Of a DNA stretch of 64,000 bases, positions 299 through 64,000 are shown piece by piece. The position numbers and the translations under genes are program-made. The DNA is from Tribonema minus (Eukaryota > Sar > Xanthophyceae > Tribonematales > Tribonemataceae), in contig JAFCMP010000044.1 in assembly GCA_017506865.1 (NCBI GenBank), positions 248,001 through 312,000 of the forward strand. Direction: 5' to 3'. A model generated the notes under the pieces. It did not search any database, was not told the origin of the DNA, and saw only the letters and a program-made list of their open reading frames with translations. Within the stretch, counting starts at the first letter, position 1; the number at the start of each line of letters is the position of its first letter.

Positions 299-3200
299 GT
301 CTCTGACCAGCTCCAGACGTCGTACAGCCAGGGCTTCCTGGTCGGCACGGAGGAGCTCGGCAAGTTCTACATCAACAACGTGAGTGCTGCACGCGACCGC
401 CGCTGATGCTGCGCTCGACGACCTCTGCTGCATCAGACTCACGTCACGCATCGCCGCGCACAGTTGTGTCCGTTGACAGCTTGACCGCCTGCTCACGATA
501 CGCATGTCGCTGTTGCTGCGGAAACACCGCACACGGCACGCGCTGCCGCTCAATGCCGTGTCGTTGACAGCTTGCACAACTGCTCACGATACGCCTGTCA
601 CTGTTTCTGCTGGTTGCCAGCTTGACCATCTGCTCACAATACTCGTGCGCATCCTGCTGCACCAGTCAGTTGACAGCTTGACCAGCTGCTCATTATGTGC
701 CTGCCACCGTCCCCGCCGCCGCAGCACGTGCGCATCCTGCTGCAGTACTCAATTGACAGCTTGACCACCTGCTCATCATGTGCCCGCCACCGTCCCCGCC
801 GCCGCAGCACGTGCGCATCCTGCTAGACCACAACCCCCAGCATGACCGACCGCTGATGAAATGCATGTCACTGTCAGCGGCGGCCAGCATGATCACCTGC
901 TCATCATATGCCTGTCACCGTCGCCGTTGCCGCCGCAGCAGTGCGCATCCTGCTGCACCACTCAGTTGACAGCTTGACCACCTGCTTATCATCATATGCC
1001 TGTCAGCGTCGCCGCCACCGCAGCACGTGCGCATCCACCTGCTCACAAATCGCCTCCTGTCACCCGTCTCCGCCGCCGCAGCACGTGCGCATCCTGCTGG
1101 ACTACTACCCCATGGCGGCGACGCCCGACCCCCCCGCGCGCGTCGTCGGCGTCTACGTCGAGCCCTTCTCCGTGAAGCACGCGTTCAAGGCGGGCGCCAA
1201 GTGGGACGGCAGCGAGGCGAACGACATACCGCCGCTCGACACGTGCGCCGCGGGCAGCGACGTCGAGAGCCTGAGGCCGGGGACCCCGAAGCAGGAGGTC
1301 GTCGCCAACGCGCCGACGCTCTTCACGTACGACGTGGTCTGGCGCGAGAGCGACAAGCCGTGGGCGAGCCGCTGGGACATCTACTTGAACTTGAACGGGG
1401 CGGTGCCCGCGAAAGTGCACTGGTTCTCGATCCTCAACTCGCTGCTCATCGTGACATTCCTCACGGCGATGATCGCCATGATCCTGTTTCGGAACCTGCA
1501 CAGGTGCGCGCGCGCGGCCCCCGCTAGAGTTGGGGTTGAGAAAAGGCATGGGGGCATGCAAGTGTGCTGTTGCATTTGCATGACAAGTCATTGGTTTGTA
1601 GGTGACAGTAGTCATGGATCAATGGGTTGGGGGGGTACAGTAGGCTTGGGGGGGAATGTAAGGGTACTGTGGCAATTGCATGGAGAAGTGATACAGTAGT
1701 AGGGTCTGTGTGTTGTGTACTCTTACGTCTGTGCTGTGGCCAGAGTCGCGGCCGGGGGGTTGTGTCTGCCCTGCACACCAAAGCCATCAGTTAGGGTAAG
1801 CCAAAGAGAGTGCCATGATTTGTGCATGTCAGCATTCGGCATGCATTACGCACACAGGGCGCTTTGCGGCATTGACGAGGCGCTTGGACATATACCCCAT
1901 GTCTCTGACTGTGCAAGCGCGCATGTTACTATATGAATCGATGATTATCAGATGCGGGTGCACTAAGGTTACGTCTGGGGTTTGGTGACGTACTCAGCAG
2001 TCATGGCGTAGCGGAAGCATCCACTGCTCTAATGGGCGGGCGCAGTAGCGGTGTCTCACACGGCAAACGGCATGGACAGTACACGCCCGGGGAGGGGTAC
2101 AGGCTTGACGGTCATTGCAAGACCAGCTCTCAGAAGCGAACCGCCTCTTAGGGTGAGGGTTAGGGGTAGGGGTAGGGTTAGGGTTAGGGTTAGGTGTCGT
2201 GCAGGCATCACATGCTAGTGCAGAGATGCACAAGACTCGTCAAGTCGCCTGCTACTTCATACTGCCTTGACCCTCGTGATGACGTATTGCAGGGACATCA
2301 CGCGCTACAACCGCGTGCCCACTGAGGAGGAGAAGGCCGAGGAGCGCGAGGAGACAGGCTGGAAGCTCGTGCACGCGGACGTCTTCCGCCCCCCCGCCGC
2401 GTACCCCATGCTCTTCTGCGTCATGGTCGGCACGGGCGCGCAGCTCATTGCGGGCGCCTTTGCGACCATCGTGTTCGCGGCGATCGGCTTCCTGAGTCCC
2501 GCGAACCGCGGCTCGCTCATGATCGCCGTGCTGCTGCTGTACGTGCTGTTCGGCGGCGTCGCGGGCTACGTGAGCGCTGTCGTCTACAAGGCGTTCAAGG
2601 GGCGCAAGTGAGTGCGAATGCTGGAGGGTTGGGGTCAAGTGAGGGCTACAATGAGGCTACGGATGCGTAGGGGATGCTTGAACCGAGCCTTGAAATGGAG
2701 GTTGCGCTGCTCGGTCAGCACCACGCACTGTTGAGCCACAGCATCGTGCTGGCCAGCCCACGCACCTGTACATTTCATCACATGCACTTCTTCACGCTTG
2801 TCACAGCGCGTTTAACTTCAAGTACTACTTCAAGTGTTCACAGTGCACCTGCCCCTACGTACGGCATGATTCTGCACCTGCCCCTACGTACGGCATCATT
2901 CCTTTGAGCACGCAGAATGCACGCCCGCCACCAAGTCCTGGCGTCTGATCCGCCCTCCCCTCCCCTTCCTGTTTGTTCACGCGCCCGCGCTCCGCAGGTA
3001 CCAGGCGTGCACGCTGCTCACGGCGCTCGCGTACCCCGGCGTCTGCTTCAGCGTCTTCTTCATGCTGGACATTGCCAGCTGGTCGTACGGCTCCACGCAG
3101 GCGGTCCCCTTCCTCACGATGGCCGCGCTGCTGCTGCTCTGGTTCGGCATCTCCATGCCGCTCGTCTTCCTGGGCGCATACCTAGGGTACCGCCGCCCCG

Positions 3201-4351
3201 CGCTCGAGTACCCCGTGGAGACGTCCAACATACCGCGCCAGATCCCCGACACGCCGTGGTTCCTCGCGCCGATCTTCACAATTGCAGTTGGGGGGATACT
3301 GCCGTTCGGCGCCGTGTTCGTCGAGATGTTCTTCATCCTCAGCTCCATGTGGATGGGCCAGTACTACTACGTCTTCGGGTTCCTGTTCCTCGTGTTCCTG
3401 ATACTGCTGGTCACGTGTGCGGACATCACCATGGTCCTCTGCTACTTCCAGCTGTGCGCGGAGGACTACCACTGGTGGTGGCGCTCGTTCCTCACCTCCG
3501 GGTCCACGGCGGTGTACATCTTCTTGTACAGGTGAGCGATGCGCGTGGTGTGGAAGTTTTTTTTCCGCATCGTGAAGTTCCGATTATATCAATGATCATG
3601 TACAGGCAAGAAGCCGGCTCATCATGAATGTATCATGAATGCCATAGCTTCATCATGAGTAAATTGAACGATCGGTGACGCGCATTCTTCACTTCCTGGT
3701 CCACGGCCGCATACAAATTCATGTACAGAGGTTGCAAACAGAGCAGCTCTCATCCCTGCTGTCACATTGTTTTGTTGGCGTAACAAAGGCGGTAGTCGGT
3801 GGCACGGGAGGCCTGTGTCCGTCAAACAATTTGGCCCTCTTCATGAAAAAGGAGAGACCACAAATGTGCTCTCTGTCTAATCAAGCAAGCAAGACCTGCC
3901 CTATATTTGCCTCATCACCTCAACTACTGCACATGAAGTGCAATTTCGTACTGTTGCGCACTCTCTCACTTCATGAAAAGCTGCTACGCATGACTTTTCG
4001 ACATAGCACGCCATGTATCATAGCCCACTGCACAGCTGACATTGTGTCACCACCATCAGGGTCTGCCCTCTGCCCTTGCTCCGCCACCTTCAGTCATTGA
4101 CGCTGCATATTTGTCTTGGACACAGCAACACCGCTGACACGCTCTCTTGCCGGTTCCGTCGCCTGTCTGAGCGCTGCTGCAGCGCGCTGTACTTTTCGCA
4201 CCTGGAGAGCAACATGCTGGTCACCTACATGCTGTACTTTGGGTACATGGGGATCATCTGCCTCGGCGTGTTCATGCTCTGCGGCACCATTGGGTTCTTC
4301 TCCTGCCTCTGGTTCACGCGCAAGATCTACGGCAGCATCAAGGTCGACTAG
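299..4351 (+). CDS. TM9SF (nonaspanin/EMP70) nine-span membrane protein, 5' end missing
   Basis: Exons 299-379, 1082-1503, 2293-2607, 2998-3531, 4183-4351 (TAG). All junctions keep phase and join to 506 residues. The first exon begins after CAG in phase 0, so the N-terminus lies to the left of the window. Family hallmarks seen: WASRWDIYL and VHWFSI before the first membrane helix, SGWKLVHGDVFRPP-type segment (here TGWKLVHADVFRPPAAYPM), YPGVCF, WFGISMPLVFLG, IPRQIPDTPWF, GILPFGAVFVEMFFI, YYYVFGFLFLVF, YFQLCAEDYHWWW and a C-terminal KIYGSIKVD. TM9SF proteins are Golgi/endosomal membrane proteins; the short C-terminal tail matches the KxD/E-type COPI-binding tail of the family. Known family role: sorting of transmembrane cargo and adhesion. 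The closest human relatives by motif are TM9SF2/4, but I cannot separate them. Intron 1 carries repeated decoy 3' splice sites (see repeat at 471). Confidence 0.93.
471..1081 (+). repeat. tandem repeat carrying copies of the TM9SF exon-2 acceptor and exon start
   Basis: About seven imperfect units of roughly 80-100 bp fill most of intron 1. Each starts near GTTGACAGCTTGACC (471, 563, 669, 751, 965 and degenerate ones). Several end with CCGCCGCAG followed by CACGTGCGCATCC, the true exon-2 start. Acceptor-like AG plus exon-start copies lie at 723/724, 806/807, 937/938 and 1022/1023; the one used in the gene model is 1080/1081, because only it runs on into the conserved HVRILLDYYP segment. Confidence 0.85.
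2147..2194. repeat. interstitial telomere-like (TTAGGG)n, intronic
   Basis: Runs of TTAGGG and variants (TTAGGGG, TGAGGG) lie inside TM9SF intron 2. Similar short arrays recur in many introns of the window in both orientations. Confidence 0.85.
3677..3735 (+). repeat. degenerate copy of the TM9SF exon-4 3' edge
   Basis: The stretch around 3690-3730 (CTGGTCCACGGCC ... CATGTACAG) resembles the last ~45 bases of exon 4 (GGGTCCACGGCGGTG ... TTGTACAG, 3500-3531). The splice donor is lost (AGAGG instead of AGGTGAG). It lies about 195 bases into the following intron. Confidence 0.5.
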
Positions 4352-4804: not shown

Positions 4805-7800
4805 TCACGATGCTGCCACGGCAGCATCGAGCAGCGGCTCATGCGCCACGTGCGTGGTGCTCCCTTTCCGCACCTCGCGCAGCATGAGCTCCAGATCTAT
4901 GTGCGGCGCCACCTGAGAGATGAGGGCGTCCACCGTGCCCGGATCTGAAGGATCCATTTTGGCCGTGTAGCCGGCTATTTTGCGCATCGTTTCGGCGGTG
5001 GTCTCGCGGCTCTTGAGGACCGGGAACTTGCTGCGGCTGAGGTAGTTGCACACGGACGCTGCAGCGTACGATGCAGCGCAACAGGGAACGTGCAAGCTCG
5101 GTGAGGGGGTTGGGGCTGAGGCATGACTGTCAATACACTGTAACGCAGGGTGGACCGCTCCGGTCCATCGATGAACTGTGGAACGACAGCAATGGTGCTG
5201 AAAATGGTGTTGTTCACGTCACAAACGTGGCATAGATGCTTGACATGCAGAGCTCAGGTCTACAGTATCTACGGACCTAAGCCTCACGGTGTCAGTGAGC
5301 AGATGACAGAGCTCATGCAGTTGCACCTTGCGAACATCCCAGTTCTACACTTGAGCAGAAGGCAGAAGGCAACGCAATTGTCACAGCTCAACATGGCCGT
5401 TCAAATGCACGCACAATGCAACCTGCCTTGCTTCATTAGACTCAAAGCAGCAAAAGTCTACCAAGCATAGGGTAGCAGGCCGGCGAAAGTCGCAACAATG
5501 TGTTCTTCCCCGAGAGCTGCTTGGCCTTGTAGACGGCGCATGCACCCAGCCGCCCAACACCCAGCCAAAAGCCGTTCATAGTCTACCCAAGAAGATGTGG
5601 ACAGTCGCTACGTACCACCAAGTGCAGTGCCGGCAAAAATTAACAATGGCAGTAGACTACATCATACCCCGAATTTCTGTACCAGCACTACACCGTGCTG
5701 CATCCAAATACTGGCTTTGGTGACGGCAGGTCAGCAGTGCTCCTCCGCGAAACCCACCTGGAAGCTGCACCCCCCCAGACAGAATGAGGCCGCACTCGAA
5801 CCTGTCCGCCCGCGCAGTGTTCATGACGTGCGTGTGCAGCCCCATGATGAGGTCAACGCGGCTCGCGTGCGTGATGAAGCACGTGCGCCCCAGCTGCTCT
5901 GGCGGCTCGCGGTTGATCTTCTCCATGAAGCGCCGCAGGGAAGTCGTCACCTGCTCTCGGCAGTTGACATTACTCGGTGAGGACTGTGAAGGTGAAGTAG
6001 GCGTGTTTATTTCACTCCAAAGGCAGTGTGATTGAGTTTGAAGTCGCATGTGAAGTCTATACTTGAAGCACGTGCGTCCCAGCTGCTCCGGCGGCTCGCG
6101 GTTCATCTTCTCCATGAAGCGCCGCAGCAACGTCGTCACCTGCACTCGGCAGTTGAAGTTGCTCATAGGGTTGAAGTTATTTTGGTGGTGGTCGCGCAGG
6201 TATGCTCAGGTGGAACACTTGCGTTGTCGCCAGAAAGCATAAGCGGCGTGTCATGTTCATTGAAGCGGTCACATTTGAAGTACACAGTTGAGGTAGGTGA
6301 CCTCAAGTCGCGCTATTGATCCTCGCTACATATGGATCTCCGCAGCAGCGTCGTCGCATGCAGTCGGCAACGCGTGGTTACTGTGGCTACCCCGAACGAG
6401 CGAATGATGTGGTTACTCCGAAGGCAGTTGAAGCAGTTGCAGTGAGTGATGTAATGGTCATGCTTGTCAGCACGTGTCGTTAGATATACATATATGCATG
6501 TCCATTATCCACTACACTTCTAAGTATACATAATGAGAGCGCGCAGAGCAGTGATCTACCTAATGTACTGCAATTCTCAATTTGGGCTGTAACAGAGCTC
6601 ACGTGTACTGCGATTTGCGATTCAACATAGTACAACAGAGTCCACAAGTGTACTCAGCGCATACCAGCTCGTAGCGGTTGAACCGCCGCAGCGCGGCGGT
6701 ACACTTCAAAGCACTGCATACATAACGAGAGCTCGTATACATAACGAGAGAGCTTAGAGCAGTACACCAGAGTTCACGAACGTACTCAGCGTGTATGTAC
6801 CAGCTCGTAGCGGTTGAACCGCCGCAGCGCCGGGTCCACTTTGAAGCATGCATAATGAGAGCTTAGAGCAGCCACCTACCAAATTGTGATTTGAGATACA
6901 ACATAGTACAACAGAGTCAACGAGTGTACTCAGCGCGTACCAGCTCGTAGCGGTTGAACCGCCGCAGCGCCGCATCCCGCCGCGACAGCATCTTCTCGCC
7001 AAACAGGTGCTCCAGATCCGCGCAAGACGGCGAGTCGAACCCCGCAGTGTGCGGGACGATGCCTAGCAGCGGCGCGCCCAACTGCTGACACGCCAGCGAC
7101 ATGTAGTGCTGCACCATGGGGAGCTTGCTGGTGCGCACCTTGTTGACGATCACGCCGCTCACGCGCACCTACGGCGGTGGCGCATCGCGGGGCGCGCGGT
7201 AGTTAAGGTTAGGGTTCGGGTGGGGCTGGAGGTAGGTAGCGTAGGGTGATGGTGTGAGTGGTCAGAGTGGCTTCAACGCGCCGAGCCTGCATGCGACGGT
7301 ATGATCCTGACGACAAGCGCCCTTCATTGCAGTAATACTTGAGATGATGCCGTGACGCGATGGCTTTCAGCACTCACCGTCACGTAAGTGAGGCGTGACC
7401 TCAGTGGTATGCTCACGTGTGGAGCCTGCAACAGTGCGACCCTCTATTACCACATCAAATGTGCCAAGTCATCGCCAACGTATCGACTCATGGTTTGCAT
7501 CTGTGCAGGTGAACGATTGACCCAACTAGCATGGCCCTAACCCTGACCCTAACCCTAACCCTAACCCGAAGGACACAGTCAAATGACTTGACTTCGTAAT
7601 GCCATCAGACACATGCACAGCCAGCGGGCCCACTAGTCTCACACCAGCGCTCAGATAATTGAAACACTTCACAGTATGTAGGTTCACCAAACTCTAATGT
7701 GGATTGTAGGTAGCTTCCGCAAACTTAGCAATCGCCAAGTAAAATGATCAACTTTGCGTGCGGCGAATTCACCATGTCATGATGCAGTATCCCAAGCATA

Positions 7801-10171: not shown

Positions 10172-13100
10172 ATGAGCTCTAATCGGCCTCCTCCCCCACC
10201 TTCGCGGCCCGGGGCAGGCCCTGGCCCTAAGCGCTCAAAACTGACATCGTTTGGAGCGGCTGTCGCAGCAGCTACGAAACCCAAGTCTGCGGCTCGACAG
10301 GCCAATGGTGGGGGCTCATCGACCCCCGTGGAACCGCCGAGAGTATACAAGAAGGCTCGGCTCACATCGGTGAGCTTGCGCACTGCTTATCGCCTCTTGC
10401 AGGCCGCAAATAGTCGTTCTTTCCGCCGCGCACCAATTTTCTGACACTTGGCTGCATTCTCTGATTTTGTCGCAGGCAATGCACCCTGATGCTCCTCTGA
10501 GGGCGTCGCCCACCCAGGGACGCACGCCCTCCCCCATGCCTTCGCAATCCGCTGGCGCCAGCGGCAACGGGCCCCGCATGGGCAGCATCGACCACTTCCA
10601 GGCAGGCCTGCTGCAGTGGGACGTGCTGGCGGAGCTGCAGGCGGAGGTCTCAGACGACCGCCGCGCGTACGAGGCCGAGCACCCCGACGACTTCGCCGAC
10701 GTCCGCGTCCCCGACCGCTTCGCGGACGTCGCCGCCTACGCCGCCATCTGGACGCCGCTGCTGCTGCGCGAGCTGCGCGCGCAGACGCTCAACTCCCTCA
10801 TCACGGATCCGCCCAGCGGCAGTCCCGCGACCGTTCTCCTGCGGCAGAAGGTGGAGGTCAGGGAGGGGTCGCTGGCCTCGATGGACGCGCGCGTGAGCGG
10901 CGGCAGCGGCAAGCAGCTCATGGGCAACGAGCTGGTGCTGATAGTGAGGGAGCAAGACATGCTGCAGCGCGCTCTGGAGGCGCCGCCGCGGGGATCGAGG
11001 GGCGCGAAAGCGGCGGCAGCGAGCAACGTCAAAGAGGAAGGGCTCGAGCTAGAGGTACGCGCAGCAGGGCATTGCATCTGCTCGTGTTTGGTGCCATTGT
11101 CCATATACGCATATACGTGCATCAGCAAAGCAGCAGCAGCGCCGTCACACACCCCACGCAGCGCCGCTCTCCTTTGCCAGCACATCACTGAGCACTGCCT
11201 ATGACACCACACGCGCATGCGCAGGCGCCGCCGCCGCTGCGCGCGCCGCTGCGCGGCATGCTGGGCGTCTGCACCAGCGCGGTGCGCTCGCAGGAGGGGC
11301 TGCGCATCACGGTGGACCGCGCCGCCGCGCGCCGCGTGCTGCCGCCGAGCGGCGAAGCCTTCCTTTACAACCTCGGCTCGCTCGCGGGCGCGGCGCGCGA
11401 GTGGGACGCGCTGCACAACCTCGCCGGCATCCCGCTGCTGCGCGAGATCCTCGCGGCCCCTGATAAAAGCGCCGCCGCCGCCGCCGCCGCGCCTGACGGG
11501 GACGACGACGCGGATGGCGGCGGCGGAGCGCAGGAGCAGCAGCGGCGCTGCCAGCAGAAGCGCGCGAAGCGCATGCGCGCGGCGGCGGACGACGCGCTGG
11601 CGCTCGCGTCCGCCGCCGCGACGGCGCAGGGCGTTGGCGCCGCGGAGGTCGGCGAGGCGTTCGCGGCGTGGCTTGAGTCGCGCTTCAACGAGTCGCAGCG
11701 CGACGCGATCGCCGCGGGCGCGCGCGGCGCGGGCTTCACGCTCGTCAAGGGCCCCCCCGGGACGGGCAAGACGACGACGCTCGTGGCGCTGCTCAACGCG
11801 CTGCACGTGCGCGAGTTCAACGCGTACTACCGCGCGATGCTTGCGCTCGCGCGCGCGGCGCCGGGCGCGGCCGTCGACGCCGCGTGGGAGGCGCTGCGGC
11901 GCCGCAAGCCGCACATCCTCGTCGTCGCGCCGAGCAACGCCGCGGTGGACAATGTGTTGCAGCGCGTCATGGAGAAGGGGTTCATGGATGGGACGGGGGG
12001 GCGCTATAACCCGCCGCTCGCGCGCGTGGGGAGGGGCGCAGGGGGGGTGGCGAAGGGGGTCACACTGGAGGACCAGGTGGAGGCGGTGCTGGGGGGCGAC
12101 GGGGGGTGAGTGACTGTGAACTCGCTTGAGCAGCTTGTGAATGTCCAGGGTTTGGGGTCATGGTGAGATTAGCTTGACGCCAGGTGTGAAAATGCCGTGT
12201 AGTCAGTGGTGTCATTGTGCGTGGATGCCTGAGAATCTTGGCAGTCCTCGCGGGTGATGATAGATGACACGTTGCTGGGCCTGCGTGGTGCAGTCGCTAC
12301 AATAGGGGTTGTCACGTCAGTAGGGCAAGGCGTGGGCGTGCAACGGCCTTGCTGCTGTTGCCATCGGACACGAGTGCACACTGCGCAACGTGTCAGAGAT
12401 TGCGCTGATTTGGAATGTGCGCATCGCTGTGCTGACTGTTGCAGAAGACAACGCAGCAGCAGCGCTGGATGGCATTCAAAATCTGTCCCTCATACAATCA
12501 TCAGAAAGGCCGCACAGTACCCTTTCACGCCATCCGTCAGGGGCATGATTTAGGCATTTGCAGCATACCTCAGTGAAGGCCCCCCCCCCCCCCCCCCACA
12601 CACACCCATGTAGCCCTCATACAATCATCAGAAAGGTCGCACATGACCCCCCCGCTCCATCCCTCAGCAGCACGGTCAGGCAATTGCAGCAAAGCTCAGC
12701 TCCCCCCCCCCGTGCAGCGCGCTGCAGCGCCGCCTGGAGGAGCTCCGCCAGCAGCTTGCGCGCCACCTCGCCGCCGTCATGGCCGCGCTGCTGCGGCTCC
12801 GCGCGCTGCACGCCGCCGTCACGCGGCCGCTGCCGCTGGGCTGGGAGGCGCGCGTGAACCCCGCCACCAACGCCGCCTACTTCGTCGACCACAAGAACCA
12901 GCGCACGCAGCCGGAGGCGCCCGCAGCACCGCTCAACCCGGACGCCGCCACGGTGCCGCTGGACGCGATGCCGGAGTACCAGATCTATGCCGCGCAGCTC
13001 ACCAAAGAGCTGGAGGGGCACGAGGCGGCGCGCGCGGAGATCAAGCGCATTGAGTGAGTAGGGGTTTGTGTGGGTTTGTGGGGCTAGGGTTAGGGTTGGG

Positions 13101-17371: not shown

Positions 17372-17409
<38 letters not shown>

Positions 17410-24900: not shown

Positions 24901-26662
24901 ACCTACGTACCCCCTCGTCACATGCAGTCAACGGCGTACAGGTGGTGGCAGCACTCGACGACTCGCAGTGTGAGACTACCTGACACTCATACCTACATAC
25001 CCTCTCATCATACCTACGTACCTTCTTGTCACGCGCAGTCGACGGCGTGCAGGTGATGGCATCGCTCGACGACGTGCTCGCTTCGTGCGATTACCTGACG
25101 CTGCACGTGCCGCTGTCGGACAGCACGCGCGACATGATAGGGCGCGACCAGCTGGCCAAGATGAAGAGGACGGCAGTGCTCATCAACGCCGCGCGGGGGG
25201 GTGTGGTTGACGAGACAGGTGCAGTTTCAACCTCAACTTTGAAGTATTAGTGCACCGCGCCCTGAGCTGGTGTCGTGGCAGGCAGATAGATGTATGAGTC
25301 AGCAGCCGTCCGCGGCATTTGTGTGTGGGGTGTCAGGAGGCGCTGTTGCCACTGCTAACATGCGCGCAGCATTTGCTGTTTGAAGCTGTTGCTGCCTCAG
25401 AGGCAAATTGGCAGAACTGTGTCCACTACATAATGTGCATGACCGCTACCTAAACTGTCTCCATCAGTGCCCTCCTGTAGGCATGATTGCACATGAGCGT
25501 GTCTCCAGTTAGACGACAGGTACATCAAATTGACCATGAGGTGGTCGCCGTCCCTCCCTCATGTCCCTCGTGTCGCTGATATGAAAGTCAGTCTGCATGT
25601 GCAGGCATTAGCAGCGAAGGCCGCATTCACATCCACAATGTACGCACATGCGCATTGCTGCACCACGCGCCGCAAGCGTGTGTGCGCCAGGGCCACTGAC
25701 GTTGAACGGCTATGTTGCATTTCAGAAATGTACAACACAGGGTTCAGCGCAACACGCACGGCATGCTGTATAGGTACACACACGCGGCGGCACCCCGCGC
25801 CCGCTTCGCTTATACTTTCAAGTTCTTGTGTATGCGCACTTGCATATGTATACCCTCTTGACTACATGCGTATACGCTGCCCCGTTTTGCCCCCAGCTGG
25901 GCCAAGCGTCTGGCATTGCTCAGACTAGGCATGAACTGAAGCTCAGTGCATCTCCGCTGCTCACTCCCCGCCACCGCCACCAGCACTGCTCGAAGCGCTA
26001 GAAGGCGGGCGATTAGGGGGAGCAGCGCTAGATGTCTTCACCAATGAGGGGGCACCTCTAGACCCAATAGTGCAGAAGCTGGCTTTACATCCACGAGTGG
26101 TATGCACGCCACACCTGGTAAGCCATGCATATGGGGCTCGCGAGAGGCTGCAGAAATTTTGTGACGTGACTAGCTCGCGCGCTTGCCCGCATATATATCC
26201 TGACTGCGACTTCAGCCTCCAGTGACATTATCACAGATTGCGTGCGCATACAAATCGATGATGATAGAAGCATGTGGCAGGGCATTGTTGCTACAGTGGG
26301 TTGCAACCCAAAATGCACAAGCCTTTCCTGTACTTCTACAGTCAGAATGACACTGGTGGAATGCAAATTGATTGTATTGTCAACACCTTAGTTTTCAAAA
26401 GTGTCAGCGCACCTCTTTTTTCTGTGCAGAACAGTATGTACGCACGTAAAGCCCACGTGCGCCGCCTGCTTGCTGTGAATCCCAGTATGGCCGTACCGTC
26501 GTGATGTGGCATTATCTTTTAGGACTCTACATCTTGCTCTGCACTGCACAGGGCGCAGCAACGGCGGAGGCGGGCGATCTCGTCATGAGCGAGGTCTGCA
26601 ATGCCGTCAAGGCAGTGCTCGACGGGCAAGACCCGGGAGAGTGTCTGGTGCAAGGCACATAG
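21956..26662 (+). CDS. D-3-phosphoglycerate dehydrogenase (2-hydroxyacid dehydrogenase), plastid-targeted
   Basis: Exons 21956-22084, 22501-22681, 23034-23149, 23711-23909, 25039-25218, 25984-26117, 26552-26662 (TAG); 349 residues. Intron 4 is GC-AG (CAG|GCAAGT) and is confirmed by phase. The N-terminus is a signal peptide ending at ATHA-F, then AAASVARK: the plastid-import bipartite form. Seen: substrate-domain [15 protein letters not shown] and [20 protein letters not shown]-binding GMGGIGRG (177-184), [12 protein letters not shown], and the catalytic triad Arg261 ([10 protein letters not shown]), Glu290 ([10 protein letters not shown]), His312 (CTPHLGAAT). The family oxidises 3-phosphoglycerate to 3-phosphohydroxypyruvate, the first step of serine synthesis from photosynthate. 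The regulatory intervening and ACT domains of long SerA enzymes are missing, so this is the short form; another D-2-hydroxyacid substrate cannot be excluded. A second, peptide-identical last exon lies at 27871. Confidence 0.87.
24361..24418. repeat. head-to-head telomere-like repeats
   Basis: AGGGTTAGGGTAAGGGTGAG is followed at once by three to four CCTAAC units and then by TTAGGGTGAG, so the array folds back on itself. It lies in phosphoglycerate dehydrogenase intron 4. Confidence 0.8.
24808..25000 (+). repeat. two decayed copies of the phosphoglycerate dehydrogenase exon-5 start
   Basis: Copy 1 (24834-24900) keeps GATGGCGTGCGGGTAGTGGC and the following exon bases, but its acceptor AG has become AT. 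Copy 2 (24920-24990) keeps a CAG acceptor, yet hits an in-frame TGA after about 18 codons. The true exon begins at 25039. CATACCTACGTACC-like linkers separate the units. Confidence 0.85.
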
Positions 26663-36235: not shown

Positions 36236-36269
<34 letters not shown>

Positions 36270-51600: not shown

Positions 51601-54600
51601 CGAGGAGTACGGCTGCCCCTTCTACCCGTGCGCCGCCGCTGCGGACGAGTCGGAGTCCGAGTCGGGTCCCGACGACGGCGGCGGCGGCGGCGGCTCGGAC
51701 AGCGACGACTCCGACGCCAGCACGAAGCGCGCTCTGAGCGCTGCTGCGCGTGATCTGAGGAAGCTGCATGTCGGGATTGCGGTGTCGCCGCCGCCGGATA
51801 TGGCCACGTCCATGGCGGCGGCGGGCGACGCGGCGGCAGCAGCGGCGGCGGAGGTGAGTGACTCGTCTGTGAGCGATGCGCGAGTGCTGTGTTGTAGTGC
51901 TGTGCGGCTGCCGATCAGCGCGCTGCCCACACATGAGTGCGCCATTGCCCCCGCAAAATCGCCCGTTGATGCCGCAGCTCGTGGCAGCGCTCAATCGATG
52001 CCACATACCAACCCTGTGCACACCCCTTCAAACCGTACAGTCAGGGTTTGCTGCATGCCGTGCATGTGGACCCTGTATGAACATGAGGAGTAATTATGCC
52101 CATGCATACTGCCTAATTGCTGCATGTCGACCCTGCATGTACTTCTACATACATACGCCCAAGCCCACTGCTGCCCCTGACTCACGCCCCCCCTGCCGCG
52201 CCGCCCGCACAGGAGGACCCCGCGGCGGCGGTCGGGCGCAGCATCGACGTGCGTGTGTGGGTCTCGCAGCCGCACGTGGCGGTGCTCGAGCAGCCGCTGG
52301 CGGCGCGCACGGCGGCGCTCATCATGGAGGCGCGCGGCGTACACTACCGCTGGCAGTGGCTCAACGCGCCGGAGCGCGTGCACATGGAGGCGGCGCTCGG
52401 CGGGCTCGCGGCGGTGGCGGTGAACAGCTACGCGGGCGTCGCGCGCGCGCGCGCGGCGTGCGCGGCACCGCCGGCAGCGGGCGCGGCGTGCGCACGCTCG
52501 TGGAGCGCCTGTCGCTCGGCTTCTGGCTCGACCAGTGGTTCATCGAGAACCGCCTCGACGTCCACGTCGCGCTGCCGCTGCCGGACGACGACGACGACAG
52601 GCTCAGCCGCGGCAGCAGCGGCGGCGGCGGCCTCGGCGCGTCCGCTGCGCTGCGCGGCTACGGCTTTGACCCGCCGCCGCCGGACCTGCCCATGGCGGAC
52701 CTCTGCTACCCGGAACCCACCGTCATAGGCACGTCATGGGGGACGCAGGCGCAGACCATGGACGTCAACGCCGCACGCGCCGGGGACATTGTCACGTCGT
52801 ACGAGGACCTGCTCTTTGCCGCGGCGTCGCTCATTGTGTTCCTGGGGCCGGAGCCGCCGCCGGCGCCGCCAGCGGCAGCAGCGGCGGCGGCAGCGCCGCT
52901 GCCGCCGGCAGCAGCGCTCGCGCGCATGGACAGCATGGCCACGTTCACGCCCGCGCGCGCCGGCGCGCTGCGCGTCGACGGAGGCGGCAGCAGCGGCGGC
53001 GGGGAGTGGCGCGATGACGCGATGCTGCGGGCGAGCATCGCCATGCTGCCGGCGGCGGAGGCGCCCGCGGGCGGCGGCGGCGGCTGGCACAGGAAGGCGC
53101 TGCGGTCGGAGGGGTGCATTGTGGAGGAGGACGAGGACGGCGAAGAGGAGGTGACTGACGCGTTGCGTGTTGCCGTGCGCAGTGACTGCCGTTGAGAGCA
53201 GATTCGGCAGGTGACTGACGCGTCAAGCGTTGCCGTGCGCAGTGACTGCCATCGAGAGCAGGTTGCGACGCTGTGAGAAGTTGAAGTTTCATGGTGTAAG
53301 TTGCGTTTACGACGACTCACACGCATACAACGTGCATGCAACGTTGACAACATTTGCATCTTACTGACGTGTGCTTCATGTCTTGTAAGCCTCTTTGCAG
53401 CTGCCAGACTTGACGGCGAGTGAGCGCCACGGGTAGGTCGGTATGACCAACATAGCAGCGAGCTCAGCCGGCCTGTGATCGTGCAGTTGTCTCTCAATGA
53501 GGCAGTGCTGAACAAAACACAGCACACACAGCTTCACTGTCAGTGCAGATGCGCTGTGCTCATCCCGTCGCCTCGCGTCCGTCCGCCTGCTCACCGCAGG
53601 AGGAGAGCGACGCGGACGGCGCGGGCGCAGCATCGCTCAGCATCCCCGGCTCCCCCCTCTCCACCGCCGCACTGGACCGCAGCAGCCCCACTTACTGGGA
53701 AGGCGGCAGCAGCATGTCGCCGCGCGCCGCAGAGCCATCTGCGGCAACGGCGACCGCGTCCGCGCTGTCGGCGACCATGGCGGCAGCGGAAGCAGCCACC
53801 GCCGCCGCCGCCGCGGCGCCGCCGTTCACCATGACGGCGGTGGTGCTGCTGAGCGGGCTACGCGTCGTCGTCGCGGACCACGTCCTCGGCATGCACCTGC
53901 CCATCGTCAAGCTGTGCGTCGGCACGCTCACGCTCGTCTGGGAGAACCGCCTGCAGTCCGTGGAGCGCGAGTTCTACCGCGCGATCGAGGCGGCCAACGG
54001 CGGACCCGTCGCCGCCGCTGCCGCCGCCGCGCCGCCGCCCGCGTCGCCCGTTGACCGCAACAGCAGCAGCCGCCCCGCCGCCGCCACCGCCGCCACCAAC
54101 AACCGCGGCTCTACGGCATCCAGCACTGCTGCCGCGGATGGCCCGGCTCGGCCCAAGACGGTGCGCTTCACGCGCGGCAGAACGTACCACGGGACGCCGC
54201 CGTCGCGCCGCCGCCACCAGCGTCGCCGCGGCCGCCGAGCAATCGGCCGCAGGCAGGCGCGCGCGGACCCGCGCGCCCGTCACCGTCGTCGTGGCCGCGC
54301 AGACGCGGCTGTGGGCGGAGTACTTCAACAACACGCTGAAGTGCTGGGAGGGGCTGGTGGACCCGTGGCACGGGTGGGCGCTGGCGGAGGCGGGCGGCGC
54401 GCGCGGCGCGGGCGCGAGCGTGCGCGCCGCGGCGCCGCTGCGGCTCAACGTCACCGGCGCGCTGCTCGACACGCTCGTCGACGTGCAGCACCGCATGGCC
54501 ACCTCGCGCCGCTCGTGACGCCGGGGCACTTCCAGCGCTGCGTGGACGCCATGCGCGCGGCGGCGGCTTTCGCGCCGCCGCCGCCGTCGTCCGCGGACTC

Positions 54601-57600
54601 CTCCTCCGGCGCGCCGCCGCCGCCGCCGCACCGCCCCGCGTCGGCGGACATCCTGCGCAGCGGCGCGCCGCCGCCGCCGCTGCTGCTGCCGCGCGCGGCG
54701 AGGAGGTGCGCGAGTGGTTTAAGGCGGGGGGGGACGAGAGGGGGGATGAGTCCATGGGGGACGGGGGCTGGGGGTAGGGGGGGGCAGCAGGGGGTCGTCG
54801 CTGAGCCCCGCGCGGCGGCGCCACCTGCGGGACCTGCGGAGCGTTGCCGTGGGGCGCGTGCCGCTGACGCACCAGTTCCTGGAGCCGCACGACGTGGAGG
54901 CGTCGACGGCGTTCACCATACTCAACCTGACGGGGCAGCGCGTGCGCTTCTTCCAGCCGCGCGTCAACGACCCCACGCGGCGCCTGCAGGTGAGGCGCCG
55001 CGCTGCGAGCGGTAGGTACACATGTATTGATGCGGCGAGGGATAGGTATGTATTGATGGGTTATGCATCGCTAGAAGACGTGGTGATGCTACGTGCAGCC
55101 GCGTCGGCGGCCCCACGCGGCCCCCGCAGATGAGACGCGCTGCGAGGGGTAGGTGTGCATGCATCCTCGGTGTGCATGCATCCTCGTCCTTCACTTGGAG
55201 ATGGAGTGCCATGCACAGTGCCCAGCGCCGCGATTGCCTGGTCAGCCACGCACACCTGCTGGCGTGCAGTCGCACTGCCCCCGCGTGCGCCACGCAGTGA
55301 CCATGGCATGCCCTTCCGATCCCCTGCTAGCGCACGCAGCCTGGACGAGGCCGGAAGCATTCCACAACTTCAACTTACCCCCCCCCCCCCCCCCCCCCCC
55401 CCCCCGGCCCCCCTCAGTACCTGCGCCACGCCGACCGCGGCACCCTCCTCTTCGGCGCGACCATCACCGTCATCCGCAACGGCCGCGTGTGCGAGGCGCC
55501 CTTCGACGTGCAGCACGAGGTCATCTGCGCCGGCGAGCCCGGCGTGACGATCCCCTCCGCGAACCCCGCCGCGTCCCCCGGCGGCGGCGGCGGCGGCGGC
55601 GGCGCGCGCAACTTCAACTCCACGGGCCACACCGTCGCCGTGCAGGTGTCGGGGTACCGCTGGCTGCCGCAGCTCGGGGCGGACCGCCTGGGCGCGCGCG
55701 CGCTGCCGCTGCAGGCGCTGATAGGGCAGGTCGCGGCGCGCGCCGTGTGCGCCGACGCGCGCCTGCAGCGCGCGCTGTCGCTCGTCTCGGAGGTCGCGCC
55801 CATGGACGGCGGCCGCCAGGTGGGCGCCGCGTGGGTGTGGAGCGCTGCTGCTGCACGTGTCTGCACGTGCACGCACGCACGTCGTTGTTGGGATGCCGCC
55901 ACCGCATGCTCGGGGTTGCCGACTCGCTGTACCTGCGATGCGCAACTTCTAGTGTTGAAGTTTCTTTTCCTGAACCACTGTGCAGTGCCGTCGCCATGCT
56001 CTCGCTTTTATCTTGCATGAGTGCGCCGCCCCCGCGTGATGTGCGTCCTGCTGCATCCCCCCCCCCCCTCATCCCCCTCGTGTCCGCTGCTGACCTCACA
56101 CTCAACCACCCGGCTTGTCCCCCCCCCCCCGCCGCGCCCCTGCCTCTCCACTCAACAGGTGACGCTCCGCAGCGTGTTTACCATCAAGAACTGCACGGAC
56201 CACCCCCTCTACATGCTCGCGCACCCGGACAGGAACTACGCCCCCCCCACCTACGCCCACGGCAGGGCCCCCGACCCCGCCGTCAAAGACTGGGTGGGGG
56301 GGGACCACATGGGGGGGGGCGGCGGGGGGGCATCCCTTCCCTCATCGCCACGTGGCGCCGGCTCTGCACGGTGGCGCACTGAGTACGTGTCGGTGGAGCC
56401 CGGGCGCGCGTACAACCTGCCGGTGCTGCTGCTGCAGCGCGCCGTGGAGCTGGAGCGCGGCGCGGCGCTGGGGTATGTATGGCTGCGGCCGGCGGCGGCG
56501 GCGGCGCAGCACCAGCAGGTGAGCGGCGCACAAATGTGAATTATCAGCAGTGGCTGTGGGGGAGTGTTTTGTTGTTTTTTTGAGAGGGTACAGTAGCCAT
56601 GCAGTTATAACCTGAGAGCTGCTCACATGTGCTTTGTTGAAGGGGCTACATAGCTGGCAACGAGGTGAGCAGGGCGGCGCACGGGTGCGAATCCACAGCG
56701 GTGGCAACTGTGCAGGTGCTTGGTTTGGGAAAGAAGTTCATAGGGGTGTTTCCATCGTCGCCTGCGTGCTGCTCACAGGTGCTTTGTCGAGGGGGGGGGG
56801 CTGGCGGCCGCTCCTCCATGGCCGCGCGGTCATATCTCAGGTCTACTTGCACGCACAAAAGTGTGTCATGCCGCATGCTTCCGAGCATCCTTGCAACTGA
56901 TTGCAGGTGCAACACTTCAACTCAGCATTGTGGCCCTGCTGCCTCTCCCCCCCCCCCTCCCCTCCATCCCCTGACACCCAATCAACTTCTTAACTGGCAC
57001 AGGCGCAGGCGGCAGCGCTGGCGGCGGCAGAGGCTGGCAAAGGCGCAGGGACAGGGGCGAAGGCGCCCGATGCGAGGGGGGCGGGGCGCAGGCACAGCGC
57101 GACCACTTCTCGGCGGCGGCGACAGCAGTTGCTGGAGGCAAGCACCCCGTGGCAGGCTAGCTTTGAAGCAACAGGCTCATCCATGACGAGCCGGAAGTAC
57201 ATTGCTTTGCCGAGACCGCATGCTTGGCACCTGGTACACTTCATGCAGTGTCAGCATCAGCTGAAGCGACTCATGATGTTGACTCGTGACTCATTCGATG
57301 CAGATCTGTGCTTCACTGGTGGGATGTGTTACCGTTGTGAGCTGGACTGCCGGCGGTGCAGGTTAACCCTAACCCTACGTGTCGCAGCTGCAGCGCTCAC
57401 ACCCTCGCTCCCCCCCCTCCCCCCACATCCCACCCCCGCGCGCAGGCGCAGCAGCCCGAGTTCGGCTACTGCACCAAGCCCCTACAGTTACACCAGCTCG
57501 TAACCGACACGCGCGCCGACGAGTGCAGCCCCCCCATCCACATCAGCTGCCCCGTCACGCACCAGCCTGCGGACTCCCCCCCCCTCCCCCCCCTGAGCTA

Positions 57601-60600
57601 CTGCCTCGAGGTGCGGCGCCGCTGCCTGGATGAGGACAGTGCGGGACTGCCAACGCCCGCGGAGTCGGCGGCGGCGATTGCGCGCTCGGAGCCGGTGCCG
57701 CTGGCTGTTGCGGCGCTCGCGCAGTCGCAGGGGGCGTCTGCTACGGGCCTGTCGCCGACAGGTGCGATCGCAGTCGCTTGCTGTGCACTCCCGACTCATG
57801 ACGCAACAGAGACCCTGTCTTACAGTGTATGTACGTTACATGGTAGACAGTGTACTGGTACACGCGTGGGCGCCACATGTTGCCATTGCAGTACTGCCGC
57901 CAGCAACGGCAGCGGAGCAAGCACAGACGCGCGCACTGCGGCGCCCGCCTGCAGCTCTGGCGCGCACGCCAACAACGACGCCATGTCCTCTCTGCCGCAA
58001 CTGCTTTTGACGGCAGCGTCTGCTCGTTTCAACCCTGTCGTTTCAACCCTGTCTTTGACCATTTCTGCGCAGGCGCGCGCCGAGCATCGCTGCTGGACAC
58101 GACGCGCAGCCTGCTGGCGCGCGCCGGCGTCGACAGCGCCGCGCGCAGCACGCGCGCCGCCGCCGCCGCCGCGGACGCCGGCCGCGCCGCCCCCGCGCCC
58201 CTCCCCCCCGCCTACGAGTACACGGTCGTCGTGCACCCGCCGCTGGTCGTGGAGAACCTGCTGCCGCACGAGGGGACGTTCGAGCTGGCGGACGAGGGGC
58301 GCAACCCGCTGTGGGCGGCGCGCCTCGAGCCGGGGACGTCCGTCGGCGTCTACTCCGTGGGCATGGACGTGCCGCTGCTGCTGCTGCTGAACCTCGGCTT
58401 CTGCAGGAACATGGACGGCGTGCACGTGCACGACGGGCTGCGCGGCGGCGGCGGCGGCGGCGGCGCGCGCGAGGACGGCGGCGACGAGTGCGCGAGCGGC
58501 ATCACGCTCACGGACGCCGTCGGCCAGCGCATCGCGCTGCGCGTGGAGAACCGGCGCGGCGGCGGCGGGCAGCGCCACGTCACCGTGTACGCGCCGTACT
58601 GGATGGTCAACACGTCGCACTACCGCATGCGCTTCCGCCAGGACGGCTCCAAGGCGCTGCCGGCGGGCACCGTGAGCGGCGCCGGCGACGGCTCCCGCGT
58701 CATCGGGCCCAGCGAGGACAACGCCGCGCTGTCGCCGTTCCCGTCGGCGTACAAGACAAGTACAGTGTACGGGGCGTCGGGGCTGCTGGGGGACAGCTCG
58801 TTTGCGGGGGCGCGCGCGGGGGGGGCGGGGGGTGCCGAGCGGCTCAGGCCGCGCCGCATCTTCCCCGGCACACCGGGCGCGATGCGCGAGGCCGCCGTCG
58901 CGGGTGAGGGTTGTGTTTGAGAGGGTGTGTGTGTATGTCGCTTGTTGAAGTCGGTGTTGTAGTTCCAAAGCGCATTCGATGATTGGCTGTTACAGCGTGT
59001 GTACAGGGTAGGTATGGAAAAGCGCGCAGCGTATGTACTGGGTATGTATGTCGAAGCGCGCAGCTGCTCGTCACGGCACCTGGCCCCGCCACGGTGCCCT
59101 CTGTTTTCAGGGAGTGCTGCGCATGAACCGCGTGCACTGCAGGCACACCACCTGCTCAAGATGACTCAGCTCAGTAACGCGCGGTGTGTCTCGACATTCA
59201 CGTGCCTCACCACCCTCCCATACACCCCCCACAGAACCCACCCGCCCGCTACCGTCCGTTGCTTCCCTGCACCTATCTATACCCATACCCATACCCCTCA
59301 CATACCTACCCACCCCCCCCACGCAGGCGGCGTGGCACCGCTCAGCCCTCCTCGCCCCGACAGCGGCGGCGGGGGTACGAGCATGGGGTCGGGGGGTGCC
59401 GCCCTGGGGGAGGCGTTCTTGCGCGAGGAGCTGTGCCTGCAGGAGCTGACGGACCTGGCGTGCATGTTCAGCTTCAACGACAACACGCTGCTGGGGTTCG
59501 GGGAGAAGCGCGTGTGCGTGCAGGTGGAGGACTCGGAGTGGAGCAAGCCCTTCAGTCCGGACACGCTGGGGATCGGTCAGGTGCGGTTAGGGTCAGGGTT
59601 AGGGGTAGGGTTAGGGCTAGGGTCAGGGTTAGGGTGGGAGCTAGGTGGAGGATTTGGAGCAAGCCCTTCAGTGCGGACACGCTAGGAATTGGTCAGGTGC
59701 GCTCAGGATTTAGGTTAGGGCTAGTGTTAGGGGCAGAGTTGGGGGTAGGGTTAGGGCTAGGGCTAGGGTTAAGGTTAGGGTTGGGGGAAGGGGTAGGGGT
59801 AGAGGAATGGACGGGTAAGGGGCAAGGGCAGGGTTGGGGGTAGGGTTAGGGTGAGGAGCGCACGCAACGTGTGCTCCAGCTACGCCTGCGCGGATTATCT
59901 GGCGTGGTTCGTGTATGCTGCGTCGCGCCGTGCCTTGCCATGCGTCAGCAGTGCTCTGCGCAGTGTCACGCGACGTGGTCGCTGTTTAGTGAGAGTTCAG
60001 GCGAGTCAAGTGCTAACCCTAACCCTTGCTGCGCCGCCACCGGCGCCTGAAGGTTGGGGGCCGCAGCTCCTCTTCTGCACCCCACTATTAAAAACCACAC
60101 ACCACACACGCAGCTATCATTAAACAAGCTGTCCCTTCAAAAAAGGAACCGCCCCAAACCGCCAAATATCCCCCGCCGCGCGGCCGCAGGTCCTGTCGGT
60201 GCGCCACCGCGGCACCGCGGACATGAACCCCGTGCTCGGCACCCTCATGGGCAGCAGCACACGCAGCGCGCACGGCGGCAGCGGCGCCGCCGACGCCGCC
60301 TTCCACATGGACGCCTGCAACCTGGAGCTGGGGTTCAACGTGACGGTGCCGCCCGGGCGCCTCGCGCACTTCACCAAAGTCGTGCAGTTCTGGCCGCGTT
60401 TTCTGGTGGTCAGCCGCCTCGACGTGCCGCTGGTGCTGGAGCAGTACGCGCCGCTGCGGCGGACGCGCACGCGCGTGGCCAAGGTGCCGCCGGGCGCCAA
60501 GGCGCCGTTCCACCTGCCGCAGGCGAGTGCTAGAGTGGGGTTGCACTATGTAGGGTTGCAGTATGCGGAGTGAGGGGTCTGTTGTGCTGTGGCAACGCGC

Positions 60601-63600
60601 ATTAATAGCTGCAGCCGTTCCACCTGCCGTAGGCGAGTGCTGACGTAGGGCTGCGGTGCGCAGGATTGCAGTGCATGTGCATTGGGGGTCTGTCGTGGAA
60701 ACTGTCCAGGAGGTTGTGCTGTGGCGCCGCACGCGCGCAGTAGCCGTTCCATCTGCTACCTTTTGTCGATACTGACCCTGATGGCTGCTCCGCGCGTGCA
60801 GAGGGACGGCGAGCGCCAGACGCGCCTTGAGTCTACCCTAACCCCAAATGGCCGTTGCACAAACACCCGCATGAGCATTATTCCGACCTATGCCTGACCC
60901 TGTCCACACCGCTGCCCCTAACCCTAACCCTAACTGCGCAGAAGGACGGCGAGCGCCAGCTGCGCCTGCGCGTGAGCGGGCGCTGGCACCACAGCACGTC
61001 GTTCCCGGTGGACGGCGCGGGGGAGTACACGCTGCGGCTGCGGCGCCGCGTGGACTGGCAGCTGCTCAACCACCTCAGCACGCGCGAGGCGGCAGAGTAC
61101 ACCGTCACGGTAAATAAATAACGAACTTGTCTCTTCCACTTATGGGTTGGGTCGAGGCAACGGGCGAGGGCTTCACTTGTTCGCCGTGTTGTTGTGCTGC
61201 GACGTTGGCGCGCACGCAGGCCAGGGGGCCCTAGCTAGCATCAGTGCTTTGAGCGAGGATGTCAATGCCTTACTGATAGTGGCGATGCTTCAAGGCGCAT
61301 GAAGGCCACTCACTGTCATACAGGGCGTAGGTCTATGTTCAGCACCGCCCGCAGGGAGGCACAGGCACCTCTTTCATGCCGCAGTTGAAGTCTGCGAACT
61401 ACACAAGTCATGAAGACAAACGTGAAGCGCCAGCGCCGCGTGCCTGTGTTGCCTCCACAATCTATGGCCGTTCTCACTCCGCCCCCCCCCCCCCTCCCCC
61501 GCCCCCCCCCCAGATCCCCCCCAACGAGACCGACGAGCTGGGCCTGTGGCTGGAGACCGACTGGTACCAGACGCAGGTCGTCGTGCGCGAGGTCAAGAAG
61601 GACTCCTTCCTGTACCACCACTCCGACGTGCAGGCGGGCGACGTGCTGCTTGCCGTCAACGGCGCGCCGACGCTGGGGCGCGCGTTCGATGACGTCATCG
61701 CCTCCGTGCGCGCCGCCGTTGCGCGCGGCGACGCCGCGGAGCTGCGCTTCCGCACCATGGAGGAGCGCTACCGCCTGCTGCGCGAGCGCGCGCTCGGGCG
61801 GCAGCGCCTGCGCGCGCAGCAGGAGCAGCAGCAGCAGCAGGCGCGCAGCGGCGCGGCGGCAGCATCGGTTGGCGGCGGTGGCAGCGCAGGTCCTCCGTCG
61901 CAGTGGACGGATGGGCCTTCGGAGGGGGAGGGGTGGCGCGCGTCGCAGGTGGGGGCTTTGACTTCACGTGATGATTTAAACTTCAAGTGAACTTGTCCAA
62001 GTTCTCAAGTATGAACTTCAAGTGTCAATCTTGAAGTGACCTACATAAATCTCTGCACTGAGCTGGCTGCAAGAGCAGCTGTGATGCGGTGCCAGCAGCG
62101 CTTCCCTGCATGCGCACCATGGAGCTTGTGACTCGGCATCCCTGTAAGCGAATGAGTGAGTGCTGGCTCGTGATCCCCGCGCACTTCCATCAGTACTGGC
62201 ACCCTCTCATTCGCCACCGAGCTGGACATCCCGCTTTAGAGTCAGGGTGACGGCACCTGCACTCACTCGTGCGCTAGACATGGCGCACCACCGCCGCCAG
62301 CGCACCACACACCGCTCTTGGAAGCGGCGTCCATCACATCTCCCACCCGCGCACCTGTTCCCTGTGCTCGTGATCGTCGCACATGTACTTGCAGTTGTGC
62401 TTCCGGGCATGGTGCGCATCGCTCCGCTGACATTGCGTGCACGGCACTGCGCCCCTCTCGCCCCACGCAGCACGACGCCGCCGTCCACCACCGCGCCTCC
62501 GCCGCGCCGTGCACGCCGTACCACGGCCGCGGCAGCGCCGCCGCCGCAGAGGCAGACGGCGGCCTCGCCAGCGGCTCCGACGAGGAGGCCGATGACCTAC
62601 TTATGGACGAACTGGAGAGGGCTTCGGGAGGCACGCACGCGGGCCCTGCGGAGGAGGAGCTGTTTATCAAGGTGGAGCTGCGGCCGATGGCGGCGAGCAC
62701 CGTGCTGGTGGTGTCCAAGCTGGAGCCGCAGCACGCGCCGTACATTGTGGAGAACATCGACATGCACTCGCGCGTGTACTTCCGCCAGAAGTGAGTTGCT
62801 AATTAGGGTTAGGGTTAACGTGACGTGCGCATCGCTCGAGGACTTCCTCCAGGAATGAGCTGTCCTACAAAAAGCTTGAGCCGCAGCATGCGCTGTACAT
62901 TGTGGAGAATGTTGACATGCACTCGCGCGTGTACTTCCGCCAGAAGTGAGTTCTGCGATGGCTATGGTTGCTGTATGATGTGCACATCGCATGTGTACTT
63001 TATGATAGACTGAGTTTCGTGGGTTGAAATTAGGGTCAGGCCTTCCCCTATGCCAGGTGCGCCGTGCATTGGCGCGCATGAAAGCATGCTGATGTCAGCA
63101 TGTTTATAAATAACGTTGTCGGCGGCAGCATTGAGCGTTTCCTCTTATAACGCCAATGTGCAACTACACTAGGGATTGCCGTGGTTGAGAAAGGTGGCGA
63201 CACTTTCTGAGCGATGACAGCGGAGGCCACTGTGATCTGCAGTGACAAGAATATTGTGGTGTCAGTATGCGGCACCTGACTGTCTGTTTTTTTTGTTTTT
63301 GGGGATAAAACGAGGGTTACAGACAGGCTTGACCTATCCCCCAACCTTCACCCTAACCCTGACCCTTCATTGTTCACCAAGGCATGCCACATGTCTCACC
63401 TTGCTGCCGCCACCCATGCCCCCCTTGTGCCCTGCCTCGTGCACGCTCTTGTCGCCACCGGCTCGCGCGTTTAGGGGCTGCGTCAGCCTGACGTTGCTTC
63501 AGTACTCACCATAGCGTGCCACTTATTGCACCCTTCTGCCACCACCCGTGCCCTGTCTCGTGCAGAGGAGCGGACTGGCACCCCTGGAATGTCGTGGGGC

Positions 63601-63656: not shown

Positions 63657-64000
63657 GTAGGTCTCGTAAACCCTGTGCACCTGGCACTGCGCTGGCTTCT
63701 TTAGGGTTATATTCACGGTTACGGTTCAGGAACGTATTTCTTATCAATTAGGTCTCGTAACCCCTGTGAACCTGGTAATGGTGCTCAATGGAGCACGAGG
63801 GCCCGTTTCTTGCCATTAAGCAGGGAGATAGTGGCGGGCACTGCAGCCCGCCAAGCCCATGCAGTACACTTGCATATGCACTGAGCTGATGCATTGAGGG
63901 GAGTTCATGCTGCGGTCTGCTTGTCTGCGCAAAGACCCTTGAGCGCCAGGAATTGGTTTGAGGCCCAGGGTCAGGGGGTCTAAAATGGACGAGGGTGATG
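63657..64000. other. intron at the right edge, VPS13-type gene continues
   Basis: No exon recognised. The donor-side sequence GGTAGGTCTCGTAAACCCTG (63656) has a second copy near 63751 (AGGTCTCGTAACCCCTG), another local duplication next to a splice donor. Confidence 0.55.

Follow-up and report, generated by a model that had tools for sequence, protein, structure and literature searches.

Within a 64-kb stretch of the Tribonema minus genome (hereafter the window; contig JAFCMP010000044.1, positions 248001-312000, of an assembly of 158.2 Mb in 554 contigs), exon edges recur in the adjoining introns: at eight predicted exon ends, distributed over five genes, the intron side holds tandem copies of the edge, splice site included, that have since diverged. 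We refer to these copies as echoes. The genes encode a TM9SF protein (EMP70), a AAA_26/DRTGG-type protein, a SEN1-like helicase (AAA_11/AAA_12), a phosphoglycerate dehydrogenase (PGDH; 2-Hacid_dh and 2-Hacid_dh_C) and a VPS13-type protein (VPS13_N), with AAA_26 and the domains given in brackets passing the Pfam cut-offs. Pfam confirmed the VPS13 identity for the N-terminal exon only, a scan of three pieces of the AAA_26/DRTGG-type gene did not detect the DRTGG domain, and two pieces of the window (22501-22680 and 60051-60530) returned no Pfam match; gene names beyond those checked against Pfam or the Protein Data Bank (PDB) are readings.

Exon ends are ab initio predictions throughout, made with a predictor trained on the window and on ten 20-kb control stretches chosen by contig number at fixed coordinates. 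A first, self-trained predictor gave runaway tiny exons and was replaced by a second. Two introns of a light-harvesting gene (control stretch S07, loci L018-L019) were recovered exactly: the joined peptide equals PDB 9m4f chain 8 (XLH8) throughout, bar one extra chain residue at each junction, where codons are split. These two introns are the only ones confirmed to the residue. The protein match indicates a chlorophyll a/c ochrophyte, possibly a xanthophyte, and a green alga such as Haematococcus, considered at first, was accordingly rejected as the source. An exon end was counted as echoed when a direct repeat spanned it with at least 10 aligned bases on each side and the partner lay outside predicted exons; 14 echo-like predicted exons were removed before counting.

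Comparison of the window with itself returned 21 direct and four inverted repeat pairs no more than 3 kb apart. The exon-edge copies, together with neighboring intron duplications, are as follows (lags in bp):

440..610, plus strand: TM9SF, intron-only two-copy duplication in the same intron as the acceptor-edge array, lag 92.
644..1111, plus strand: TM9SF acceptor-edge array, unit ~83 bp, at predicted acceptor 1081 (EMP70 exon match); five CCGCAG|CA(C)GTGCGCATCC sites, one of them the predicted true acceptor.
3477..3728, plus strand: TM9SF, copy of exon end 3531, lag 197 (3477-3531/3674-3728); the alignment ends at the exon end, and the cluster is classed as mixed.
5875..6164, minus strand: AAA_26/DRTGG-type gene, acceptor-edge echo, lag 189, 90% identical, at predicted acceptor 5950.
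6609..6973, minus strand: AAA_26/DRTGG-type gene, donor-edge array, lags 132 and 276, at predicted donor 6940.
12487..12711, plus strand: SEN1-like helicase, intron duplication, lag 127, stopping 6 bp short of a predicted acceptor and counted as intron-only.
13769..13925, plus strand: helicase, acceptor-edge echo of exon 13889, lag 117 (13769-13808/13886-13925), with three intronic bases aligned; classed as mixed.
14092..14582, plus strand: helicase donor-edge array at predicted donor 14162 (AAA_11 match), lags 132 and 308 and a partial copy at lag 430; the copies at lags 132 and 308 retain ...TTCGC(A/G)CAG|GTGCGCAGC.
24802..25102, plus strand: PGDH acceptor-edge array, lags 94 and 205, at predicted acceptor 25038 (2-Hacid_dh_C match).
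53149..53261, plus strand: VPS13 region, tandem unit of 60 bp beginning at predicted donor 53150.
54960..55154, plus strand: VPS13 region, donor-edge echo, lag 140, at predicted donor 54989.
59522..59761, plus strand: VPS13 region, donor-edge echo, lag 121, at predicted donor 59580, running into TTAGGG-like repeats.
60504..60697, plus strand: VPS13 region, donor-edge echo, lag 110, at predicted donor 60534.
62717..62952, plus strand: copy of the end (62794) of the last predicted exon, lag 155, 92.6% identical (62717-62797/62872-62952); the end is predicted as a stop.

A preliminary description of the window, which gave exon numbers and no coordinates, had reported such echoes in at least five of eight multi-exon genes and named 12 edges. 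Echoes in these genes are confirmed, at the eight predicted ends and at four places (13889, 53150, 62794 and 3531) that fit the claim but miss the rule or the pair list. Eleven of the named edges are recovered if the five VPS13 donors are taken as 53150, 54989, 59580, 60534 and 62794, the last having been read there as a donor; the VPS13 exon-14 acceptor was not recovered at E ≤ 1e-4. Introner or transposon insertion would leave related copies dispersed over the genome; a genome search for a 257-bp segment from the TM9SF array, the only unit so searched, returned three places, all inside that array and one of them the query itself.

Repeat clusters at predicted exon edges

The analysis covered 292.5 kb in total, namely the window, the ten controls and four kinesin loci chosen for several exons each matching Pfam PF00225. 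A search of the genome for this family gave 132 kinesin-motor exon matches; in some kinesin genes the same motor segment was matched twice close together, and these would be echo exons visible from coordinates alone. Among 314 predicted exon ends, 57 are spanned by a repeat, 52 of them with the partner outside predicted exons, and the echoes at these 52 ends comprise 99 pairs. The window is not enriched relative to the rest of the sample, holding 3.4 direct pairs per 10 kb as against 2.0-23.5 in the controls and 0-35 at the kinesin loci.

The echoes are local tandem duplications in direct orientation, with units of ~60-200 bp. Direct pairs at lags of 40-1000 number 232 and inverted ones 13 or 4, depending on which of two counting rules is applied, and three local dinucleotide-block shuffles of the 292.5 kb yielded no repeat pair. 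The median lag is 138 bp, 86 of 104 clusters lie below 190, and the reading frame is ignored (36/34/34 clusters by lag modulo 3). Cluster numbers fall sharply above ~190-200 bp, with 14 at 160-190 and two at 190-220 in the window and 14 fetched stretches; this size is near a nucleosome repeat length. Per-cluster identity has a median of 78% and a 90th percentile of 92%; the aligned length reaches at least 0.7 of the lag in 66/104 clusters, and many pairs align over part of the unit. The only near-identical complete pair (stretch S00, 13621-13776/13777-13933, 97%) abuts exactly, with 0 bp of microhomology, and older abutting pairs, ranging from about -12 to +4, are not readable in this respect.

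Counted position by position, repeats cover 0.182 of predicted boundaries (57/314), 0.190, 0.202 and 0.160 of introns by distance from the end, and 0.018 of deep exon, so that duplications are nearly absent inside exons. A first conclusion from these values—no boundary excess, plain neutral duplication—was overturned by cluster-level counts; the per-position view had misled, as arrays at a boundary occupy the neighboring intron too. The 97 introns of at most 1500 bp, in 32 exon chains, contain 39 clusters spanning an exon end, 12 intron-only, seven mixed and four exon-only. Leaving out the last two classes, 39/51 clusters (76%) are spanning as compared to 18.3 expected from the geometry of their own introns (P 1.9e-10). 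Where both flanking exons score at least 30, 15/20 are spanning (7.1 expected), and cut-offs of 15 and 20 select the same 35 clusters, 26 of them spanning (12.2 expected). Masking the exons, such that detection used introns only, still placed 28 of 42 clusters in spanning arrays, with six of the other 14 no more than 20 bp from an exon end.

Relocation of whole footprints gave a similar picture: 53/104 clusters are spanning versus 26.8 ± 4.1, a count reached in 0/2000 runs, with 34/71 versus 17.5 ± 3.2 in the controls and 8/15 versus 3.7 ± 1.6 in the window alone (P 0.011). Three kinesin genes, in which Pfam matches cover 16/18 exons and the predictor supplied the ends, have 14/18 clusters spanning versus 4.9 expected (P 2.8e-6); the fourth locus, K4, had no cluster and no exon kept, and was left out. 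Among two-copy pairs alone, taken over the full 292.5 kb, 17/55 are spanning versus 9.3 ± 2.7 (P 0.009); a post hoc split by lag gives 16/32 versus 5.5 ± 2.1 at 95-230 and 0/12 versus 1.0 below 95. Forward simulations in which duplications were placed uniformly, those in exons purged and copies left to decay on one side, with small indels and under some settings deletions of unit size, returned spanning shares (of spanning plus intron-only clusters) of 27-39% as four-run means over five settings; two single runs, one for each of two rates, gave 43% and 29%. Direct repeats cover 0.228 of introns no longer than 1500 bp, 0.123 of longer gaps on the same strand, 0.071 of the DNA near but outside genes, 0.063 of the DNA lying over 1 kb away from any predicted exon and 0.082 of exons. 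Stop codons, considered as exon ends that lack a splice site, are spanned in 2/13 predicted terminal exons, which are few and uncertain, and the GC content of duplicated intron DNA (0.590) differs little from that of other intron DNA (0.574).

These counts support a boundary link as a statistical excess at predicted exon edges at the level of clusters. Boundary-linked duplication, as put forward in the preliminary description, is borne out to this extent, and a possible molecular cause is considered below. That description held that an equal frequency of duplications within exons and far inside introns would refute the link: clusters are not so distributed, whereas by position introns are as densely covered as boundaries.

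One-sided decay and array structure

The two parts of an echo differ in their conservation. Taking one pair per end at the 51 ends with at least 15 aligned columns on each side, identity is 0.895 in the exonic and 0.797 in the intronic part, the exonic part being more identical at 42/51 ends (P 2.9e-8). The window alone gives 0.894 versus 0.816, with the exonic part higher at 7/8 ends; end segments of non-exonic pairs show only a small effect (0.842 versus 0.812, n=115). The exonic part diverges about half as fast as the intronic (ratio 0.52), as expected if one copy is frozen and the other drifts. Mismatch rates of 0.095/0.073/0.150 at the three codon positions fit a drifting echo paired with an exon that changes mostly at third positions.

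Splice dinucleotides are kept in 40/49 echoes (GT 20/27, AG 20/22), and about 0.80 retention is expected under neutrality for two unconstrained bases at 10.5% one-sided divergence. As retention is close to the neutral value, maintenance of the echoes as decoys or alternative exons is not supported; the copies decay neutrally and are not maintained as working splice sites.

Inspecting the arrays revealed the exonic extent of an echo to range from 18 to 94 bp (median 51, 52 ends) and often to be equal among copies of one array. At the 36 ends whose exon equals or exceeds the unit in length, the exonic share of the unit averages 0.43 and exceeds 0.6 at 4/36 ends, departing from uniformity (Kolmogorov–Smirnov P 0.003). 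Multi-pair arrays make up 27/39 spanning clusters and 0/12 intron-only ones. Two or more echoes occur at 25 ends; of these, 18 show the lower divergence in the nearest copy and six in the farthest, with one tie (P 0.023). Echoes share 67 derived changes, compared to 10.4 under a star phylogeny in which each arose independently from the exon, which shows that some copies were not made directly from the exon. By codon position these changes number 24/6/37, and some of them probably arose later, on the exon side.

Origin of the echoes

The reading we lean towards, with little more than even confidence, is local tandem duplication biased to exon edges, partly amplified into arrays and followed by neutral decay. 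If a unit straddled a donor, the upstream, exon-side donor would be spliced and the echo left in the intron; if it straddled an acceptor, the downstream, exon-side acceptor would be spliced, with the same outcome. Since the protein would be unchanged, such edge duplications may be tolerated, whereas those wholly within an exon would be purged; purifying selection would freeze the exonic copy while the echo drifted, which would account for the exonic part diverging half as fast. Some founding units may have been amplified in register into arrays, by which exon edges would keep supplying intron sequence. Exons or their edges may be duplication-prone, and a possible cause is staggered nicking of GC-rich exons (GC 0.736, versus 0.57-0.59 in introns of the exon chains) followed by fill-in and end joining, as proposed for short tandem duplications in rice (summarized in PMC7407515). 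Nicking and fill-in would be consistent with the size of the units and with the single readable breakpoint, where microhomology is absent. A further, tentative proposal, which we hold at somewhat less than even confidence, is that mutation linked to exons or splice boundaries makes introns lengthen, in part, through decaying copies of the exon ends that flank them.

Several observations weigh against duplication biased to exon edges. By position, boundaries show no excess over introns, single-pair clusters within exon chains are evenly divided (12 spanning to 12 intron-only), and 24/104 clusters have no predicted exon within 300 bp, a zone that makes up 53% of the DNA. Coding-like sequence near these exon-distant clusters was weak and not significant (P 0.11). 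The non-uniform exonic share is not predicted by uniformly hot exons alone, and the 67 shared changes (10.4 expected) indicate that some echoes were not copied directly from the exon. Exon ends, those of the kinesin genes included, come from our own predictor; several thresholds were picked during the work, many after inspection of the data, and the length split of two-copy pairs is post hoc.

The main rival, which we regard as unlikely though of real weight, is uniform founding with differential survival: arrays anchored in an exon keep an intact copy, recombine in register and persist, intron-only pairs vanish, and boundary-directed mutation is not needed. This would explain the arrays well, given that multi-pair arrays are frequent among spanning and absent among intron-only clusters, that single-pair clusters are even, that copies in one array commonly have the same exonic length and that near copies are less diverged. 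It explains the two-copy excess (17/55 versus 9.3) less well; young intron-only arrays should also grow, yet 0/12 did, and simulations of uniform founding reach 27-43% spanning, although these were built without identity-dependent in-register turnover.

We consider it improbable that the pattern is an artefact, either of assembly or of exon ends predicted inside coding-like repeats. The 14 repeat copies that were themselves predicted as exons, and dropped, lend some weight to that view, as do two exons used in stretch S03 whose predicted strand is not that of the main gene at that place. Most copies, however, are far from identical, which argues against collapsed or expanded assembly; the largely Pfam-matched kinesin genes agree with the other loci, and chains whose flanking exons both score at least 30 retain the excess. 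Selection is very improbable as the force that keeps the copies, whether they served as alternative exons, as back-up sites or as the decoy splice sites that were the other possibility raised in the preliminary description, and the part of its interpretation that is not supported: the copies carry a good GT or AG, and the TM9SF and helicase arrays resemble strings of usable sites, but their splice dinucleotides are kept at the neutral value, first and second codon positions drift (0.095/0.073) and unit lengths are blind to frame.

Tandem duplications that cross an exon boundary have already been described in individual genes and as a way in which new introns arise. In human factor VII, the exon 7/IVS7 donor lies in the first of several homologous 37-bp repeats, and the most upstream donor is normally the sole one used (PMC6627357). 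As in that gene, the exon-proximal site would be the spliced one in T. minus; unlike it—a single gene with a shorter, highly homologous unit—many genes are affected here, acceptors as well as donors, by mostly decayed units of 60-200 bp. A tandem duplication across an intron-exon boundary produced a new intron in the potato RdRp gene (PMC4974935); the T. minus duplications likewise cross boundaries, but their echoes would remain within the old intron. Tandem genomic duplication starting at an exonic AGGT has been described as a means of gaining or relocating introns, under the Rogers model and in Drosophila (PMC2891723; review PMC3443670). There, too, short duplications with splice signals alter gene structure, but by creating introns, whereas the T. 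minus echoes add length to introns already present.

A literature search whose coverage excluded most subscription papers showed no report that decaying copies of exon edges are in excess across a genome. To our knowledge, no exon-edge bias has been reported for the short tandem duplications of rice (Vaughn and Bennetzen 2014). Should the edge bias hold with RNA-supported exons, duplication at exon edges would be a sequence-visible source of intron length and of new alternative splice sites. The frozen exonic copy and its drifting echo would then form an internal clock, from which neutral divergence could be read in a single genome, and the arrays would offer splicing research natural series of near-identical donors or acceptors, of which presumably one is used.

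Other repeats in the window include a 1-kb direct duplication (26465-27480/27784-28761, lag 1319, 74% identical) that holds two intact-looking copies of the apparent last PGDH exon. Short interstitial telomere-like TTAGGG/CCCTAA runs lie at 2148-2194, 7535-7567, 24387-24404, 59585-59851 and 60916-60933, one of them adjoining a donor echo of the VPS13 region. Downstream of the helicase AAA_12 exon, a 212-bp GCT/GGT-rich triplet array (17235-17446) sits inside predicted exon 17149-17485, and a 36-bp, nearly pure C run (55378-55413) immediately precedes a predicted acceptor of the VPS13 region (exon 55418).

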